Below are positions 12,986 to 42,519 of a stretch of 42,519 nt of DNA, piece by piece (within the stretch, counting starts at the first letter, position 1; every line of letters begins with the position of its first letter). The position numbers and the translations under genes were made by a program. The DNA lies in contig CANGHW010000032.1 of the NCBI GenBank assembly GCA_947453695.1, positions 1-42,519 on the forward strand. Reading direction: 5' to 3'. This DNA comes from Opitutia bacterium (GTDB lineage: Bacteria; Verrucomicrobiota; Verrucomicrobiia; Opitutales; Opitutaceae). The notes under the pieces were generated by a model. That model saw nothing but the letters and a program-made list of their open reading frames with translations. It ran no database searches and was not told the origin of the DNA.

Positions 12986-14926
12986 ATGTCACTCTGGGAA
13001 TATAAGGTCATCACCAGCGGGAAAGGTGGCTTCGCCACGCCCGCGATGCTGGAGAAATTTCTCAACGATCTCGGCCGCGACGAGTGGGAGATCATCGAAT
13101 ATCACTCCACGCCCGACAATCTCCTCGCGTTTACGGGCCTCGCCCGTCGCTCCACGCAGCGCGATTGGACGCTCGCCGACGCCGCCGCCGCCGCGGCCAA
13201 GGCCGAAGCCGAAAAACTCCGCGCCGAGTTTGCCGCCAAGTTCGAGTCCGCCACCCGCCCTGCGCCCGCGGCCGCCGAGGCCCCGCCGGCCAGCTTCCTT
13301 GAGGAAAAGGCCGCCCCCGAAGATGGCTTCCGCAAGCCTGTCGACACCTCCCGCGATGACGATCCCGAGTCGCACGAAGAACCGAAGGACGATTGGGACA
13401 AGCTGACCGCTTCCGAGGAAGAGGAACTTCCGGTTTTCTTCGACGCCATCAAGCCCCACCTGCGCCGCAATCAGCGTGGCGCCGGCATGAGTGTCGGCAC
13501 CGACTACCTCGCCAAGAAATGGGACCAGTCCGAAGACGACATCAAGGGCGCCCTCCTCGAGTGCGGTTTCGTGATGCCCGTCGACGAAGACTCCCGGCCC
13601 GAATACGTCGAATACGACGGCGATCTCTATTGGCTGAACATCAACCGCCGCGGCGAACTCTGGATCAACACCAAGGAAAAACCGCGCCCCGTCTTCCGCA
13701 ATGTGAAGGCCACGCGCGTCGAGCAACCCGCTGAAGAGCCCAAGCCCGAGCCAGCCGCCCCGGCCCCTGATGCGCCGCAGGCCAAACCGCACTTCGAGCC
13801 CCGCAGCCGCGCTGAGCGCGACGCTTCCGCCCCGGCCGCTCCCGCCGCCCAGGTCTCCGCCGACGCTCCCGCCAGCACGGATGCCGCGGCCTCCGACGCC
13901 TCAGTTGCTGCGTCCGCTCCGGCCGCGCCCGCCGCCCCGGCGGACACTTCCGGCGCCGCGCTCCCGCCCGGCATCGAACTCCTCGCCAAGATCCGCCCGC
14001 TCATGCGTCGCAACCGTCGCGGCCCCGGTGGCTCCGGCAGCGCCAGCTTCCTCGCCCGCGCCTTCAAGCGCCCCGAGGCCGAGCTGATCGCCGCCTTCGT
14101 CGCCCTCGGCCTCCCCTTGCCCGCGCGCCCCAATGACCGCCCCGCTCTCGTCGAACTCGACGGCGATATCTGGTGGATCAATCAGGACTCTCGTGGCGGC
14201 GTCTGGATCAACGGCCGCGAAAAGAAGCCCGGCGAAATCATTCCGCCGCTTGCGCCCGCCGACGCCTCCGCTGCTCCGGCAGCCCCGGCTCCCGCGAACG
14301 ATGCGACTATTGCCTCGTCCGTCGCACCCGCGACCGAAGCCGCTCCGGCCGCGCCCGCTACCGAAGCCGCCCCGGCCCCCACCTCGGATATTGCGCCCGC
14401 CACGGTTACCGAGGCTACACCCACGGCCCCTACACCAGCCGTCATTGAGACGCCCGCGCCCGTTGCCGCGGCCCCTGAGCCCGCTCAGGCCCCCGCACCG
14501 GTAGACCCGGCTCCTGTGATTGAAGCCACGCCCGAACCGGCCGCCGCACCCGCGCCGGCACCTGTCGCCGAAGCTCCCGCGTCGAATCCCGTCCTCGCCG
14601 CCGTCCGCCTCCTCCTGAAGGAAACGAAGACCGGTGCCGTCGCTGGCAAACTCGAGCGCGTCGCCGAAGAGTTGGGCAAGTCCCCCGAGGACTTCCTCGC
14701 CACCCTCGTCGCCGCCGGCCTCAAGATCCCCGACAAGTCTCGCGAAAAACCCGTCTTCGTTCCGCACGCCGGTGAGATCTTCTGGCTCAACCGCAACGCC
14801 AAGGACGAGCTCTGGCTCAACGCCAAGGCCTCGAAATTCGCTGATGGCGAGGACGAGGAAGATGACGACGCCGAAAAGAAATCCGGCAATCGCCGCGGCG
14901 GCCGTTCGCGTCGCAAGGGCGACTGA
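12986..14926 (+). CDS. Protein with three copies of an unrecognised helix-plus-WLN/LWIN domain joined by Ala/Pro linkers
   Basis: A 646-residue, probably cytoplasmic protein (no signal peptide or membrane segment). Residues 1-55 resemble a DUF4177-like alpha/beta unit (YKVIT, then LEKFLNDLGRDEWEIIEY). An Ala/Glu-rich helix follows. Three related domains lie at about 148-231, 330-414 and 534-617. Each has a helical first half, RRNQRG or RRNRRG in the first two copies, and ends with G(D/E)-x-(Y/W/F)W(L/I)N, about six residues, then (L/V)W(I/L)N. The linkers (about 245-328 and 420-532) are almost wholly Ala/Pro/Glu/Thr. The C-terminus is acidic and then basic (RRGGRSRRKGD), suggesting nucleic-acid contact. 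The domain looks like a small winged helix, but this is inference. The ATG chosen directly precedes the conserved-looking start, and a strong terminator follows. I do not recognise a named family. Confidence 0.85.
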   Translation: MSLWEYKVITSGKGGFATPAMLEKFLNDLGRDEWEIIEYHSTPDNLLAFTGLARRSTQRDWTLADAAAAAAKAEAEKLRAEFAAKFESATRPAPAAAEAPPASFLEEKAAPEDGFRKPVDTSRDDDPESHEEPKDDWDKLTASEEEELPVFFDAIKPHLRRNQRGAGMSVGTDYLAKKWDQSEDDIKGALLECGFVMPVDEDSRPEYVEYDGDLYWLNINRRGELWINTKEKPRPVFRNVKATRVEQPAEEPKPEPAAPAPDAPQAKPHFEPRSRAERDASAPAAPAAQVSADAPASTDAAASDASVAASAPAAPAAPADTSGAALPPGIELLAKIRPLMRRNRRGPGGSGSASFLARAFKRPEAELIAAFVALGLPLPARPNDRPALVELDGDIWWINQDSRGGVWINGREKKPGEIIPPLAPADASAAPAAPAPANDATIASSVAPATEAAPAAPATEAAPAPTSDIAPATVTEATPTAPTPAVIETPAPVAAAPEPAQAPAPVDPAPVIEATPEPAAAPAPAPVAEAPASNPVLAAVRLLLKETKTGAVAGKLERVAEELGKSPEDFLATLVAAGLKIPDKSREKPVFVPHAGEIFWLNRNAKDELWLNAKASKFADGEDEEDDDAEKKSGNRRGGRSRRKGD

Positions 14927-34241: not shown

Positions 34242-36332
<2,091 letters not shown>

Positions 36333-36342
36333 CCGCAAACAG

Positions 36343-36434
36343 GTAGGGACGCCTCTCCGAGGCGTCCGCCCTCAGCGCGCAATCCCCCCTTCCCCTGTGC
36401 CCCCAACGGACGGCTGCGGAGAGCCGTCCCTACC
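36343..36434. repeat. Pair of inverted REP-like palindromes (REPIN-like)
   Basis: Left unit GTAGGGACGCCT-CTCCG-AGGCGTCC (36344-36367). Right unit GGACGGCT-GCGGAG-AGCCGTCCCTACC (36408-36434), which is the same family on the other strand. They lie between the convergent histidine kinase and response regulator genes and may end transcription from both sides. Confidence 0.8.
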
Positions 36435-36503
36435 CTTGGGCCCCCCACTCCCATCTCCCGTCTTCCAACTCCCATCTCCCATCCCCAATTTTCTAGTCCG
36501 CCG

Positions 36504-37166
36504 TCATTCCAACCCATTCCGCACGCACCAGCGGATGAAGCCCGATAAATCCCGCACGCCGATTTTCTCCATGATGTCGGCGCGTTCTTTTTCCACCGTG
36601 CGCGGACTCAGGCCGAGGCGCTCGGCGATCTCCTTCGAAATCAATCCCCCGGTCACGAGCCGCGCGATCTCGCGTTGCCGCTCCGAGAGCACACTCGGCG
36701 ACGGCCCCTCGGGCATTGGCCGCAAGGTGGCCAGGCCGGACGTCATCTGCGTGGAGAAATACATCCCGCCCGCCAGCACGCGCTCCACCGCCCGCTCCAC
36801 GTGTTCCGCCGGCGAGGCCTTGTCGACCAATCCGCTCACGCCCAGCGCCAGCAATTCCGCCGGCAGCGACGACGTGACGGTGCTCGTGAGCACAATGCAC
36901 CGCAGGCGGGGATGCCGAGCGCGCACGCGCCGGACGATTTCCCGCCCATCCACCCCGGGCAGGCGCAAATCGACGAGTAAGAGTTCCGGCGGATTCGCCA
37001 GGCACTGCTCCAGCGCCGCCGTGCCATCGCCAAACGTCCGTAGCGTGCGCGGGGCAAAGCGCGCCACGAGCGCCCGGGCCAGCAAGTCGCGCAGCAACAC
37101 ATCGTCTTCCACGAGCACAATGTGGTGATCGCCTGATTCAGGGAGGGTAAGTTCGGCCGCAGACAT
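36504..37166 (-). CDS. NarL/LuxR-family response regulator
   Basis: A 220-residue cytoplasmic DNA-binding regulator. The receiver domain (about 14-135) has acidic D21/D22, phosphoacceptor D66 in LLLVDLRLPGVDG, the Thr/Ser switch in LTSTVTSS, and K in VDKASPAEH. The LuxR-type helix-turn-helix (about 158-218) contains LSERQREIARLVTGGLISKEIAERLGLSPRTVEKERADIM, written here as one continuous block of the family. The chosen ATG begins the receiver domain; the frame upstream is derived from dispersed repeat DNA. It converges on the TPR histidine kinase gene, its probable kinase, with two palindromes between them. Target genes are unknown; the exported-protein operon to the right is one candidate. 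Confidence 0.92.
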   Translation of the reverse strand: MSAAELTLPESGDHHIVLVEDDVLLRDLLARALVARFAPRTLRTFGDGTAALEQCLANPPELLLVDLRLPGVDGREIVRRVRARHPRLRCIVLTSTVTSSLPAELLALGVSGLVDKASPAEHVERAVERVLAGGMYFSTQMTSGLATLRPMPEGPSPSVLSERQREIARLVTGGLISKEIAERLGLSPRTVEKERADIMEKIGVRDLSGFIRWCVRNGLE

Positions 37167-37565
37167 GCAACGAAATAGCAAATGAAGAAAGGTATACCCT
37201 CCATTCCGTGCAAGTTTTGTTCCGCATCGATGTGCGCCACCCCGGCAGGGACGCCTCGCCGCACCCCACCGCCCCAAGCGCCTTTTTGCGGCCACCTCCC
37301 TCCACGTCTTCCACCGCCCCTCCGTTTTAGTGTAGTTCGTGGCTCCCCCATTCGCCTCATTCGCGTGTTTCGCGGGCACCTCCGTCCTTCCGTGTTTTCC
37401 GTGTCTTCCGTGGGCCACCTCCGTCCTTCCGTGTTTTCCGTGTCTTCCGTGGGCCACCTCCGTCCCTTTCGTGTATTTCGTGTGTTTCGTGGTCTCCCTA
37501 TCCTCCATTCGCTCCACTCCATTTGCCTGATTCGCGGAAAAAAAACCGCCGCGAGGTCCGCCAAG
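37167..37565. other. Gene-free stretch upstream of the response regulator
   Basis: About 400 bases with no convincing gene. It holds a partial REP-like sequence (CAGGGACGCCTCGCCGC near 37246), fragments of the TTCGTG-type dispersed repeat (about 37334-37375), the 39-bp tandem duplication listed separately, and a run of A near 37539-37547. The part next to 37166 should contain the promoter of the leftward response-regulator gene. Confidence 0.5.
37379..37500. repeat. 39-bp tandem duplication of a TTCCGTG-rich dispersed repeat
   Basis: Two identical 39-base units (37379-37417 and 37418-37456) start CCTCCGTCCTTCCGTG and end TTCCGTGGGCCA. A third, diverged partial unit follows, with TTTCGTGTATTTCGTGTGTT. 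Inside each unit the 9-base motif TTCCGTGTN repeats three times. The arm TTCGTGTGTTTCGTGG of the element at 41997-42072 is related. Confidence 0.88.
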
Positions 37566-38257
37566 CCCGTTTCAGCCTCCTGAACGCCCATTCCCGATCC
37601 CCTGTTGCCCATTTTCGTTTCCGCGAATCCCCCTTCAATCCGCGCAACGGCCATTTCATTTCGCGCGAAGACCACTTCCGTTTCCTCGAAGCCCATTTCG
37701 ATTCACCCGGAGGCCATTTCGGTTTACCCGCAGGTCATTTCGATTTGCCAGAAGACCGTTTCGATACGCGCAGCGGCCATTTCCCATCACTTTTGGCCAT
37801 TTCCGATTACCCAAAGGCCATTTCATTTTCCGCAAAGGCCATTTCGATCCGCGCGAAGGCCAATCCAATTTACCGGACGGCCATTTCGATTTACCGAAAG
37901 GTCGTTTCGATCCGCGCAACGGGCATTCCCGTTCACTTTTCGGTCATTTCGAATCACCCAACGGCCATTCTGATTTCCCGGAAGCACGTTCCCTTTTCCC
38001 GGGAGCCCGTTTCGCTTCGCCCGCAGCCCATTTCCGTTCACCCGGCGCGCGTTCCCGTTTCCCGGAAGCCCATTTCCAAAACCGCCAAGCCCCCTTCACG
38101 GACCGCAATCACCGTTTCGCCCACCGCAAGCACCGCTTCGTCCGCCCCGAATCCCCCTTCGTCCAACACGAATACCGCTTCGCCGACTACGAATACCCGT
38201 TCGTCCACCCCGAATACCCCTTCGACCATTACAAATACCCCTTCGAGCGCCCCGAAT
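37566..38257. repeat. Degenerate 21-bp tandem repeat array, 33 units
   Basis: I could divide this stretch without gaps into 33 consecutive units, 32 of 21 bases and one of 20 (starting near 37776). Units vary around a pattern like GCCATTTCGATTCACCCGAAG: a CCRTTTC core at the start and a purine-rich end (AAG, GAG, ACG). The last seven units form a distinct subgroup, ACCGCTTCGTCCACCCCGAAT. Because 21 is a multiple of three, no stop arises and all frames are open for long distances on both strands, giving heptad-like translations such as GHFDLPE or AISIRAK. The 20-base unit shifts the frame inside the array, and no frame is better conserved than the DNA, so a protein-coding role is doubtful. It lies 288 bases upstream of an exported-protein operon. 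Confidence 0.85.
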
Positions 38258-38545
38258 TGGTCAACGACGATCTGTCTCCGACCGCTGCCCAGCGGTTCGG
38301 CTCGACCAAACGCCGCCGATTGGTCGCATCCGCTAGTGTTGATTCTCGGTGTGTCTGAGGAGTTGTCCTTAAAGCAATTATCTTGAGGAAATTCGCGGCA
38401 ATTTTTCTTGTTCAGCGAATAATACCTACTCTCGCCTGGTAGAATTTCCTATTTCGCCGACGCCTCCTTACCCCCTTTTCGGACGTTTCAGCGCTCTCTC
38501 CATACCTCCTGCAGGTCCGCTCTGCCTGCACTTCATTACTTTCCC
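38258..38545. promoter_or_regulatory. AT-rich leader region before the exported-fibre operon
   Basis: Between the tandem array and the fibre gene the composition changes to clearly AT-rich (38363-38460), including TAATAC at 38420-38425 as a possible -10 box. No matching -35 at normal spacing is evident. It probably contains the operon promoter and a 5' leader of about 100 bases; no hairpin or riboswitch was recognised. Confidence 0.35.
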
Positions 38546-41011
38546 ATGACTATGAATATGCTGCCCTCGTTGTCTCGTTGCGCCTCGGTCTTGTCTTGGC
38601 GACGCCGACTGCTCGCGTCCGTGTTGTCCCCGATCCTCGCGGTCGGTTTCCTGCTCGCCCCGGTGCACGCCCAGACAGCCACCAGCGCGGTCCCCGGTCT
38701 CTTTAATTTCCAGGGCAAAGTCGCCAACGCCAACGGTTCTCTGGTCGGCGCCAGCCCCAATCCCGTCAACCGCACCGTGATCTTCCGCATCTGGGATCAT
38801 GCCTCGGCAAGCACGGCGGCCAACCTCGTCTACTCCGAGCAGCAGGTCGTAACGATTTCAGATGGCGAGTTCAGCGTGCTGATCGGCCAGGGCTCGGCCG
38901 TGAGCACCACGCCGCTCGGCTACAGCGAGAGCTCGAAGGGCCCCGGCTCCCTCACGATTGCCTCCGCGTCGGTCTTCGGCGGCGCCACGCGCTTCCTCGG
39001 CATCACGATTGACGACGGCAATTCCGCCACCACCGACCCCGAAATCACGCCGCGTCAGCAGCTCGTCACTTCCGCCTACGCCTTCCGTGCGAAATATGCC
39101 GAGTCGGTCGGCTCCAACGGCACGAGTGTCCTCACGGTGCTCGACAGCGGCAACGTCGGCATCGGCGCGGCCAATCCCGGCGCCAAGCTCGAGGTGGCCG
39201 GCAACATCCGCGCCGGCGGTGCCAGCGTCGCCAATCCTTCGCTGCAACTGCTCGCCAATTCGGCCAGCAACGTGGCCTCCAGCGTGACTTATGCGGCCTC
39301 GGCGAGCCAGTTCAGCTCCGATGCCGCGGCGGGCGATACGGTCGTCCGCACCGACAATGGCGGCAGGCTGCTCCTCCAGTCCGGCGTGGGCGCCTCGGCC
39401 CTGGTGATCGATACCAACAACCGCGTCGGCATCGGCACCTCCACCCCGAATGCGGCGCTCGACGTCAATGGCGCGCTGATGCTCAAGGGCGCGCTCACCA
39501 ATTCATCGGGCCGGCCCGCGGTTGGCGCTAGCCGGGTGGCGGCGGAAATTAGCGGCTATGGCAGCGTCGGCGCGTTTAACGACGATGGGTTCCTGCGCCT
39601 GAGTGCCGGCGGCGGCACCACCGCCAGCGCCAAGAGCTTCATCGACCTGAGTGGGTTTTCCAATGCGGCGGACATGGACAAGACCCTGGTCTTCGGCACC
39701 GGCGGTGCGGAGCGGCTGCGGATCAGCAACACCGGCGCACTCATGCTGAAGGGCGGGCTTACCAATGCAAACGTCCGACCTGCCGTCGGCTCGACCCGCA
39801 TCACGTCGGAGATCCACGGTTACAGCGGGGGCGGAGTGTCCTTCGATGATGGATTTCTGCGGTTGAGCGCCGGCGGCGGCACCAACGCGAACACAAAATC
39901 TTTCATCGACTTGACCGGGTTTGCGACCACCACGGATATGAATATGAACTTGGTGTTCGGCACGGGGGGCGCTGAGCGCATGCGGATAAACGGCAGTGGC
40001 AACGTCGGCATCGCCAATAATAATCCCGCAGCGTTGCTACATATCGGAACGGGCGTAAATGCCGGTCCCGGCGGATTAATTGTCAATACGGGGTGGGTTA
40101 GCGCAACTGACCCCACCGAAAATCGTCCGCTGGATGTGCAGGTCCGCGGAACTTCTAGATTGGTGGTAAATACGAACGGAGCCGTCGGCATCGGCACGAC
40201 TAACCCGACGCAAGCACTGCTCGTAGTCAGCGGCTCGACCGGCACCGATAACGTAGGACCGCATGCCAACCTTACCACCGCGGGCGCTGGCAGCGGACCC
40301 AACGCATCCTACAGCTTCACCGACGTTTCAATCAAGGGCACCGGCGCCATTCATGCCCTCTACTTCCGCGCCGTGTCCGATCAGCGTATCAAGGTCACGA
40401 AGGGCGTTTCCGACGGGAAGAAGGACTTGGCGCTCCTCAGTCAGATTCAAATCACGGACTACACCTACCGCGACGAAAAGACCAACGGCGCCCGCCCGCA
40501 AAAAAAGGTCATTGGTCAGCAGGTCGAATCCGTTTTCCCCCAGGCTGTCGTGCGTGCGACGGATGTGGTGCCCGACATCTACCAGAAAGCCGCGGCCAGG
40601 GACGGTTGGGTGGCGTTGTCGACCGATCTGAAAGTTGGCGAGCGCGTCCGCCTCGTCGCCCCCAAGTCGGACTCCATCTACGAGGTGCTCGAGGTGCAGC
40701 CTGATCGCTTCCGCACGGGCTTTACCGAGGCGCTCGACGACCTGTTTGTTTACGGCCGCGAAGTGAAGGATTTCCGCGTCGTGGACTACGAGGCCATTTC
40801 CATGCTCAATGTCTCCGCCACGCAGGAACTCGCGCGGGAGAACGCCGCCCTTCGCGCCGCCAACGCCGCTCTCGAGCGCCGCCTCGCCGAGGTCGAGTCC
40901 AAGGACCGCGCGCGGGACGCGAAACTCGCCGCGATCGAAAAGCTCCTCCAGTCGGCCTCCACGGTGATGGCGCAGCCCGCCAAACCAGCCAACGCCTCCA
41001 CCCAGCAATAA
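38546..41011 (+). CDS. Exported fibre-like protein with C-terminal S74 intramolecular chaperone
   Basis: An 821-residue exported protein. The signal region (LLASVLSPILAVGFLLAPVHA, cleaved about residue 42) is followed by a beta-rich N-terminal domain (43-190). A shaft of short motifs follows, VGIGxxxPxxxLxVxG (at about 204, 294, 547), as in trimeric phage tail fibres. Residues 310-397 are repeated at 398-485. At the C-terminus SDQRIK (611-616) is the SDxRxK motif of Peptidase_S74 chaperones, followed by QIQITDYTYRDE and GQQVESVFPQAV. In characterised members the domain assembles trimers and cuts itself off just before this Ser. A leucine/alanine coiled coil (about 755-800) ends the protein. 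A surface appendage or adhesin is inferred. No phage genes are nearby. It begins a three-gene run; the next gene starts 31 bases on. Confidence 0.88.
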   Translation: MTMNMLPSLSRCASVLSWRRRLLASVLSPILAVGFLLAPVHAQTATSAVPGLFNFQGKVANANGSLVGASPNPVNRTVIFRIWDHASASTAANLVYSEQQVVTISDGEFSVLIGQGSAVSTTPLGYSESSKGPGSLTIASASVFGGATRFLGITIDDGNSATTDPEITPRQQLVTSAYAFRAKYAESVGSNGTSVLTVLDSGNVGIGAANPGAKLEVAGNIRAGGASVANPSLQLLANSASNVASSVTYAASASQFSSDAAAGDTVVRTDNGGRLLLQSGVGASALVIDTNNRVGIGTSTPNAALDVNGALMLKGALTNSSGRPAVGASRVAAEISGYGSVGAFNDDGFLRLSAGGGTTASAKSFIDLSGFSNAADMDKTLVFGTGGAERLRISNTGALMLKGGLTNANVRPAVGSTRITSEIHGYSGGGVSFDDGFLRLSAGGGTNANTKSFIDLTGFATTTDMNMNLVFGTGGAERMRINGSGNVGIANNNPAALLHIGTGVNAGPGGLIVNTGWVSATDPTENRPLDVQVRGTSRLVVNTNGAVGIGTTNPTQALLVVSGSTGTDNVGPHANLTTAGAGSGPNASYSFTDVSIKGTGAIHALYFRAVSDQRIKVTKGVSDGKKDLALLSQIQITDYTYRDEKTNGARPQKKVIGQQVESVFPQAVVRATDVVPDIYQKAAARDGWVALSTDLKVGERVRLVAPKSDSIYEVLEVQPDRFRTGFTEALDDLFVYGREVKDFRVVDYEAISMLNVSATQELARENAALRAANAALERRLAEVESKDRARDAKLAAIEKLLQSASTVMAQPAKPANASTQQ

Positions 41012-41902: not shown

Positions 41903-42519
41903 AAACTTTTCCCCACCACGCCGCCGCTTCTGGGTTCGGAGTGCCGCCTTCAGGCGGAATCACGCGTCTTCCCGCCCATCGAACCTCGAAATTTTTGCCC
42001 ACGAAACACACGAACCACCCGAAAGGCTCAGAGCTTCGTTCCTTTTTCGTGTGTTTGGTGTGTTTCGTGGGCCCTCTCCGGTCCTTGTTCGCCAGCTTAC
42101 TCAGTCGTTCGCGTCCCTTCGCGTCCCTCCGCGGTTCCCTAGGTCTTTTTCTTTTGGCCTCTGGTTTTGCGGTGACCTCCGCCCACGCCCAGTGGCAATC
42201 GACCACCTACACGCTCAAGGGCGGGTGGAACTCCATCTATCTCCACGGCGAAGCCACCTACACCACCATCGATGCGCTCTTCGCGTCCCGGCCCGAGATC
42301 GTCTCGATCTGGCGCTGGAATCCCAATCCCAGTCAGGTTCAGTTCAGCTCCTCTTCACTGGTGCCCACCAACGGCACGCCCGAGTGGAGCGTGTGGACCC
42401 GCGGCGGCTCCGCCAACACCCTGACCTCGCTCACCGGCCAAGCCGCCTACCTTGTTGAATGCACCGGTGCCGTGACCGACACCTACTCGGTGCCCATCTT
42501 GCAAAAGGTGGTGCCACCG
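41899..42519 (+). CDS. N-terminal part of an exported protein (runs off the right edge); start uncertain
   Basis: The frame is open from an ATG that overlaps the previous stop (ATGA) to the window edge. The first 80 or so codons cross a small hairpin and a 76-base MITE-like element, so they are probably not ancestral coding sequence. A signal-peptide-like segment follows (GSLGLFLLASGFAVTSAHAQ, about 42133-42192). The mature part starts QWQSTTYTLKGGWNSIYL and continues IVSIWRWNPNPSQVQFSSSS and GTPEWSVWTRGG. The likely true start is a GTG at 42067 or a nearby non-ATG codon, unless the element has been captured into the leader. I do not recognise the family; it is exported and follows two other exported-protein genes. 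Confidence 0.68.
   Translation, partial: MKTFPHHAAASGFGVPPSGGITRLPAHRTSKFLPTKHTNHPKGSELRSFFVCLVCFVGPLRSLFASLLSRSRPFASLRGSLGLFLLASGFAVTSAHAQWQSTTYTLKGGWNSIYLHGEATYTTIDALFASRPEIVSIWRWNPNPSQVQFSSSSLVPTNGTPEWSVWTRGGSANTLTSLTGQAAYLVECTGAVTDTYSVPILQKVVPP
41944..41957. repeat. Small palindrome after the EF-hand protein gene
   Basis: CCGCCT / AGGCGG perfect 6-bp stem with a 2-base loop, followed by AATCACGCG; similar in layout to the other REP-like units. No T run follows. Confidence 0.5.
41997..42072. mobile_element. MITE-like 76-bp element with 15-bp terminal inverted repeats
   Basis: GCCCACGAAACACAC (41997-42011) pairs perfectly with GTGTGTTTCGTGGGC (42058-42072). The centre is unrelated sequence of 46 bases. 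The right arm is related to the TTCGTGTGTTTCGTGG remnants near 37470-37495. No transposase is encoded, so it would be non-autonomous. It interrupts the upstream or leader region of the last gene without creating a stop in that frame. Confidence 0.65.

Follow-up and report, generated by a model that had tools for sequence, protein, structure and literature searches.

The genome from which the window (the whole 42,519-bp stretch of DNA analysed here) was taken carries many tandem arrays of 21-bp units. They are intergenic, share one period, have mostly unrelated consensus sequences and few off-register steps, are absent from the sampled congeners and have been copied between loci. We tentatively propose that the array in the window is a member of a lineage-specific, satellite-like class of non-coding DNA, in which two helical turns (21 bp) would set the period and the sequence would be nearly free, with the units held in phase for contact with a putative protein. 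Our confidence in this reading is less than even.

The window array and its family

The predicted 21-bp tandem array was confirmed by autocorrelation. Its lag-21 identity was 0.627, whereas 500 dinucleotide shuffles reached at most 0.357 at the best of lags 2–129, which excludes the lack of a significant period that had been named as the refuting outcome. The six highest lags were 21, 63, 42, 84, 105 and 126. Lag-21 identity in segments away from the array was 0.20–0.42, and TRF reported rows with periods of 21, 42 and 63 between 37649 and 38257. A cyclic 21-state profile placed the array at 37544–38256 (no strand assigned) and divided it into 34 units, all of 21 bp except for a short one of 20 bases. 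The original prediction had counted 33 units from 37566, and its single 20-base unit was found again. This is unit 12, located at 37775–37794 by counting; the single-base step was placed at 37791 in one profile fit and at 37795 in the other.

The left part of the array (37544–38109, bounds from unit counting, no strand) consists of GGCCATTTCGATTTACCGAAA-type units (A), the final two of which grade into the B type. The second subgroup foreseen at the right end was present as well: seven TACCCCTTCGTCCACCACGAA-type units at 38110–38256 (no strand) form the B zone, a type common to the arrays on contigs C12, C177, C42 and C68. The proposed core CCRTTTC holds for the A type; across 286 units of nine arrays, the columns of highest conservation were C3, T6, C15 and C8.

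The source genome has at least nine arrays related to the window array. A blastn search over the 6.38-Mb genome gave 18 matches on nine contigs including that of the window (C32, C12, C177, C42, C68, C135, C169, C63 and C5), and a four-unit sequence model added an array on C149. The order of subtypes is constant: A and B are followed by a third type, C, in C12, C177, C42 and C68, and the window array ends after B. The match between the C12 and C177 arrays is 82% along 457 query bases, and that between the C169 and C63 arrays is 96% along 476; hence arrays have been copied between loci in an unchanged order of units. A 126-bp higher-order unit was found in the C63, C169 and C5 arrays, of which C149 is a relative.

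The response regulator gene reported beside the array was verified by a domain match: it encodes a LuxR-type domain and lies at 36504–37166 on the minus strand, 378 bp left of the array, and a histidine kinase gene (domain match) is also among the neighbours in the window. The claim of a fibre gene on the other side stood in part. The gene at 38546–41011 on the plus strand (38621 is the start given by a simple gene caller) encodes a Peptidase_S74 (S74 chaperone) domain, and its product matches the mosaic adhesive trimer fibre N domain family NF053851 below the family cut-off. A role tied to either gene is unsupported, since four related arrays adjoin unrelated genes: MutS-family and DAHP synthase genes at C177, DUF2293 and rhodanese genes at C12, a Sua5 gene at C63 and an IS66 transposase gene at C135. 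The response regulator used as a query gave 92 matches in the source genome at E ≤0.001 and 9 to 83 in the congeners.

Other repeats were seen in the window. A second class lies beside the array at 37377–37492; its 39-bp unit is made of TTCCGTGTN-like 9-mers and is present in 2.9 copies with 92% matches. TTTCGTGTG-type 9-mers recur near 42.0 kb (42000–42133), and inspection by eye showed similar words next to the arrays of C12 and C42. At 14329–14496, inside a long ORF, an array of period 57 with a low coding score was gained at a looser cut.

Arrays of other sequence and their distribution

Sampling of the source genome covered 842.5 kb: the window and a further 800 kb, taken as 20-kb stretches (40 in all) on its 20 longest contigs. 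Intergenic stretches of at least 250 bp were submitted to a lag test that allowed periods of 8–60. A periodic array was found in 13 of 120 stretches, the window array counted; nine had a period of 21, three of 42 and one, at the threshold, of 60. Eight congeneric genomes (709 kb, some stretches of G004, G007 and G008 being a non-random draw) gave no 21-bp array in 114 stretches and one array of period 9. Three other members of the family (400 kb) gave no array in 65 stretches, and shuffled stretches gave none in the same test. This contrast, 12 of 120 stretches at period 21 or 42 against none of 114 and none of 65, favours the phase explanation. If the sample is typical, the 11 array-bearing stretches in the 800 kb outside the window correspond to some 90 genome-wide.

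The periods differed with the codon score. All 11 non-coding-like arrays of the source genome have a period of 21 or 42, which again favours a pitch kept for phase. The ten coding-like arrays have periods of 33 (four), 54 (two), 30, 12 and 21 (two), and the two of period 21 are the window array and L276, both barely above the cut. The consensus sequences of the arrays are mostly unrelated, yet the period is shared: in a comparison of consensus profiles, 5 of 136 pairs exceeded z 3, the top two being known relatives and the other three having z 3.1–3.7. Units within arrays differ at about 25–50% of sites. Further families are dispersed, the C16 family with matches on C67, C69, C47 and C59 and the C18 family with matches on C31, C211 and C271. 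In a 21-bp array at L231 14404–14823, some units are strongly palindromic, e.g. CGGATTTACAAATCCG; its dyad z of 4.8 sets it apart from the window family.

A search of related genomes for arrays with the same core had been recommended; such arrays were found in the source genome and none was confirmed in relatives among the candidates scored. With blastn over 57 genomes including the source (at most nine candidates per genome scored), array matches were obtained in the source and one 33-base match in another genome. The sequence model R1 gave matches in 6 of 95 genomes including the source (at most 47 candidates per genome scored), the other five being weak. TRF found no array at the six loci of these five genomes; its longest rows there were short, with 1.9 and 2.6 copies. 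G004 (83%) and G005 (76%) share the left flank of the C16 locus, and the match stops before the array. The mean column identity of the C16 units is 0.62, i.e. they are more diverged than the flank is between species; therefore, the arrays have diverged fast, have been lost elsewhere or have come from outside. At the L276 array, the right flank matches a gene and was unused as an empty site, so that the left flank alone is clean. The congener G004 has, past the shared left flank (L314 2480–3130), its own 10-bp-step repeats (AATCCGAGTA AATCCGACCA) within a repeat of about 300 bp (by eye).

A collection of species genomes and viral contigs was scanned for two GGCCATTTC words spaced 21 bp apart. 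At least 155 places were found; among the places listed, 126 had a best-flank lag-21 identity below 0.5, and the arrays at L094, L131, L120, L137 and L164 read by eye as coding heptads. Other arrays among the places listed belong to a Spartobacteria MAG (L069), two Tannerellaceae MAGs (L087 and L104) and a Chitinophagaceae MAG (L149). The L087 array has 14 matches on 12 contigs of its genome, several with their own 21-bp consensus. Samples of the Tannerella (L104) and Spartobacteria (L069) genomes contained further arrays of new sequence with a non-coding-like score, and this recurrence of the pitch is a point for the phase explanation; the Spartobacteria array L361 is single-copy. On the other side, the sample of the Tannerellaceae genome G095, which carries L087, contained three coding-like arrays of 21/42 bp and a non-coding-like one of period 41. 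Since the Tannerellaceae, Spartobacteria and Chitinophagaceae genomes were chosen for having one 21-bp array, these samples give no measure of the frequency of the trait. A degenerate non-coding-like array of the Chitinophagaceae MAG (G097; L358 11057–11260) has a period of 11, about one helical turn.

Register and the explanations of the pitch

Eleven off-register single-base steps occurred in 298 units of ten window-family arrays, some of them at the same site in relatives, and a profile fit over 17 array stretches found one step, that of the window array. Parsimony gave at least 782 substitutions in 15 stretches (197 units) of nearly the same set; the stretches were picked by eye where the layout holds, and array edges and C5b were excluded from the parsimony set. 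The C5b array loses register after L225:4800 (by eye). Gaps per mismatch in paralogous arrays were below those of a non-coding control by all three alignment schemes: 57/1505 versus 45/214 with blastn defaults, 240/3637 versus 21/124 with cheap gaps and 22/1856 versus 2/96 with dear gaps, the control being six congener pieces of 150 columns and the array pairs being non-independent. On this evidence, register appears to be kept 2 to 6 fold better than in ordinary non-coding DNA. Coding DNA had the same ratio as the arrays with blastn defaults (209/5828).

Column variation in 18 arrays was compared with a simulation of equal-rate duplication. It was above the simulated mean in 16 of the 18, and 16 of the 18 fitted at p >0.05; the remaining two, C20 (p 0.005) and C63 (p 0.003), had columns of greater unevenness than equal rates would give. 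Better conserved columns had lower substitution rates (rho −0.58, p 0.006), a drop that was weak or absent in young pairs. Thus, constraint is weak on the sequence and strong on the pitch.

In the explanation that we put forward, an array would start from a local 21-mer and would grow by in-register tandem duplication, also of blocks such as the 126-bp one, with divergence by substitution. Off-register indels would be purged, since the array would act as DNA in helical phase. Every unit would present the same face, so that a putative DNA-coating or bridging protein could bind one side, and the divergence of the units may also guard the array against recombinational loss. The rarity of steps and the low gap ratios are consistent with this scheme. 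Several observations speak against it. The family of a candidate binder, the histone fold PF00808, was absent from all nine congeneric genomes searched (the source and eight others). The indel control is small, its contrast is 2 to 6 fold, and the array ratio with blastn defaults equals that of coding DNA. The columns vary nearly as equal-rate duplication predicts, the A+T content of the source arrays shows no 10.5-bp harmonic, and the slip in C5b, the coding-like 21/42-bp arrays of G095 and the periods of 11 (G097) and 41 (G095) count against a pitch kept for phase. Among the three roles originally offered, the phased DNA array is nevertheless the best left standing, owing to the shared 21-bp pitch and the few off-register steps; phase as the cause is what we infer.

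After the like-for-like indel control, a neutral origin is about as likely. Functionless minisatellites would be produced by a duplication machine that measures two turns (e.g. by filling in nicks staggered by 21 bp) and would then diverge. The independence of the period from sequence and the near equal-rate columns are what such a machine would produce; its occurrence in one lineage and absence from the sampled congeners agree with it too, and the indel contrast with dear gaps is just about twofold. Against it, decay predicts 28 to 164 indels per 782 substitutions at ratios of 0.036 to 0.21, and 16 at 0.021, whereas one step was seen in the chosen stretches. Copying by a reverse transcriptase is an unlikely form of the machine, because PF00078 was not found in the source genome (93% complete); the family is present in six of the nine congeneric genomes.

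Heptad-repeat protein genes or their remnants are an unlikely source of the pitch, although 21 is divisible by 3 and 21 bp would make seven codons. Single arrays frequently have one open frame, and the C63, C169, C5 and C149 arrays are open throughout in the minus frame that reads NGLPVNGNGQKVFRNAQKV; the same frame has 5 stops in the window array and 9 in C12. In the sub-family with this open frame (L014, L015, L016 and L059), the frame extends over roughly 100–230 codons and its heptads are of the kind NGQKVFR NAQKVTQ NALSVNR. The window array had been described as open in nearly all frames; with the phase followed, this held for the plus frames (0, 1 and 1 stops) and failed for the minus frames (9, 5 and 5). 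Among the nine related arrays, stops occur in each of the six frames, so that none is open in all of them, contrary to the heptad protein suggested for the window array; an ordinary repeat protein, the alternative named beforehand, is thus not supported for the window array. The recommended comparison of synonymous and non-synonymous change between paralogous arrays gave a synonymous excess in frames +2 (z 4.7) and −1 (z 4.1), which share third positions. This excess and the coding-like gap ratio with blastn defaults count for a protein. The excess is spread over one frame per strand, however, with p 0.07 when columns are the unit, codon scores are low, and the non-coding-like arrays of the source genome keep to 21/42 bp, whereas the coding-like ones have 12, 30, 33 and 54 plus two of 21. 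A test of 3-periodicity gave no signal in the arrays, nor in the coding controls.

Sequence-specific operator arrays, each with a regulator of its own, are similarly improbable. The uneven columns of C20 and C63, the 16 arrays above the simulated mean and the drop in rate with conservation would suit them; the fit of 16 of 18 arrays to equal rates, the weak trend in young pairs and a consensus that varies by array argue against them. A transcribed repeat RNA, e.g. a protein sponge, has the long intergenic location in its favour and is very unlikely: folding of the two strands, compared with shuffles, gave z −1.60 and +1.29, an Rfam search of 36000–39000 gave no match at E ≤0.1, and a search of 37000–38700 for sigma-70-like promoters, the one type covered, found none. 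The structured RNA among the original candidates is therefore unsupported.

Other structural models were also examined. Palindromic sites for a dimer did not fit the window family, whose dyad z (−0.8 to 0.9) was no better than with permuted columns; dyad symmetry reached p ≤0.035 in the C11, T10, C5b and L104 arrays. As to curved DNA, the A+T share at 10.5 bp in the arrays of the source genome was 0.08, with no harmonic; the shares of AA/TT (0.17) and purine (0.16) were slightly raised (z 2.5), and six Tannerellaceae arrays had a strong 10.5-bp harmonic (WW share 0.33, z 8.2). A 7-bp A+T sub-period was not general, being strong in W_A, C135 and C63, which are one family, and weaker in W_B, C11 and C3 (p 0.017 to 0.034).

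Known repeat classes and the meaning of the pitch

Most known tandem repeats of bacteria are coding or form a single slippage-prone sequence family. CRISPR arrays also consist of many regular units, with unique spacers between the repeats; the present 21-bp units are contiguous, without unique spacers, so that CRISPR is not supported, as had been predicted. Plasmid iterons do not fit either: the neighbours are the response regulator and the fibre-like gene, and the units are not near-identical (lag-21 identity 0.63). GTAG/CGTC-tagged REP elements, reportedly short dispersed intergenic repeats with palindromic units, resemble the arrays in dispersal and intergenic location and differ from the window family, which has no significant dyad symmetry. 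The coding 21-bp heptad repeats of two Rhodocyclaceae MAGs (L094 and L131) have the same period and the same word, GGCCATTTC, and read as EMA heptads on one strand (by eye), whereas the relatives of the window array share no frame.

Among open PMC papers, we recognised no report of genome-wide non-coding arrays with one period and many sequences. The original statement that no known repeat class comes to mind was nearly right, the nearest published kind being BrickBuilt. In the part of its description available, this is a 23-nt minisatellite MITE of Porphyromonas gingivalis with 19 copies of one sequence family, many with a leader and a tail that bear small inverted-repeat ends, and with element-internal mismatches of 0–11% and indels of 0–6% (PMC4596501). 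As far as that text goes, the likeness lies in imperfect, spacer-free tandem units that are intergenic, dispersed in one species and composed of conserved and variable sites (PMC4596501). The dispersal of intergenic tandem arrays in one species, with the sampled congeners devoid of them, was found here as well. Unlike BrickBuilt, again as described there, the present arrays have 21-bp units and many unrelated sequences, with units differing at about 25–50% of sites instead of one 23-nt family (PMC4596501). A-tracts at about 10.5 bp have been proposed, in the portion of the source available, as a helically phased feature of the nucleoid (PMC3940949). The present arrays differ from the periodicity described there in that whole 21-bp sequences are repeated, with no 10.5-bp A+T harmonic in the source genome (PMC3940949).

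Both selection for helical phase and neutral duplication with a two-turn ruler make the pitch the key variable, the question being whether 21 bp matters when sequence does not. If the pattern is true, unrelated intergenic arrays with one exact pitch, visible at a unit divergence of 25–50% in a genome whose sampled congeners have none, would imply that the helix itself serves as a ruler or is selected. More broadly, and with similarly guarded confidence, we suggest a sequence-independent two-turn ruler: a machine or a DNA-coating protein that may write or maintain 21-bp non-coding arrays in roughly one in ten of the longer intergenic stretches. Such a ruler would be on in the source genome and, judging by small samples, in the Spartobacteria and Tannerella MAGs, and off in close relatives, and would possibly represent a bacterial analogue of satellite chromatin.
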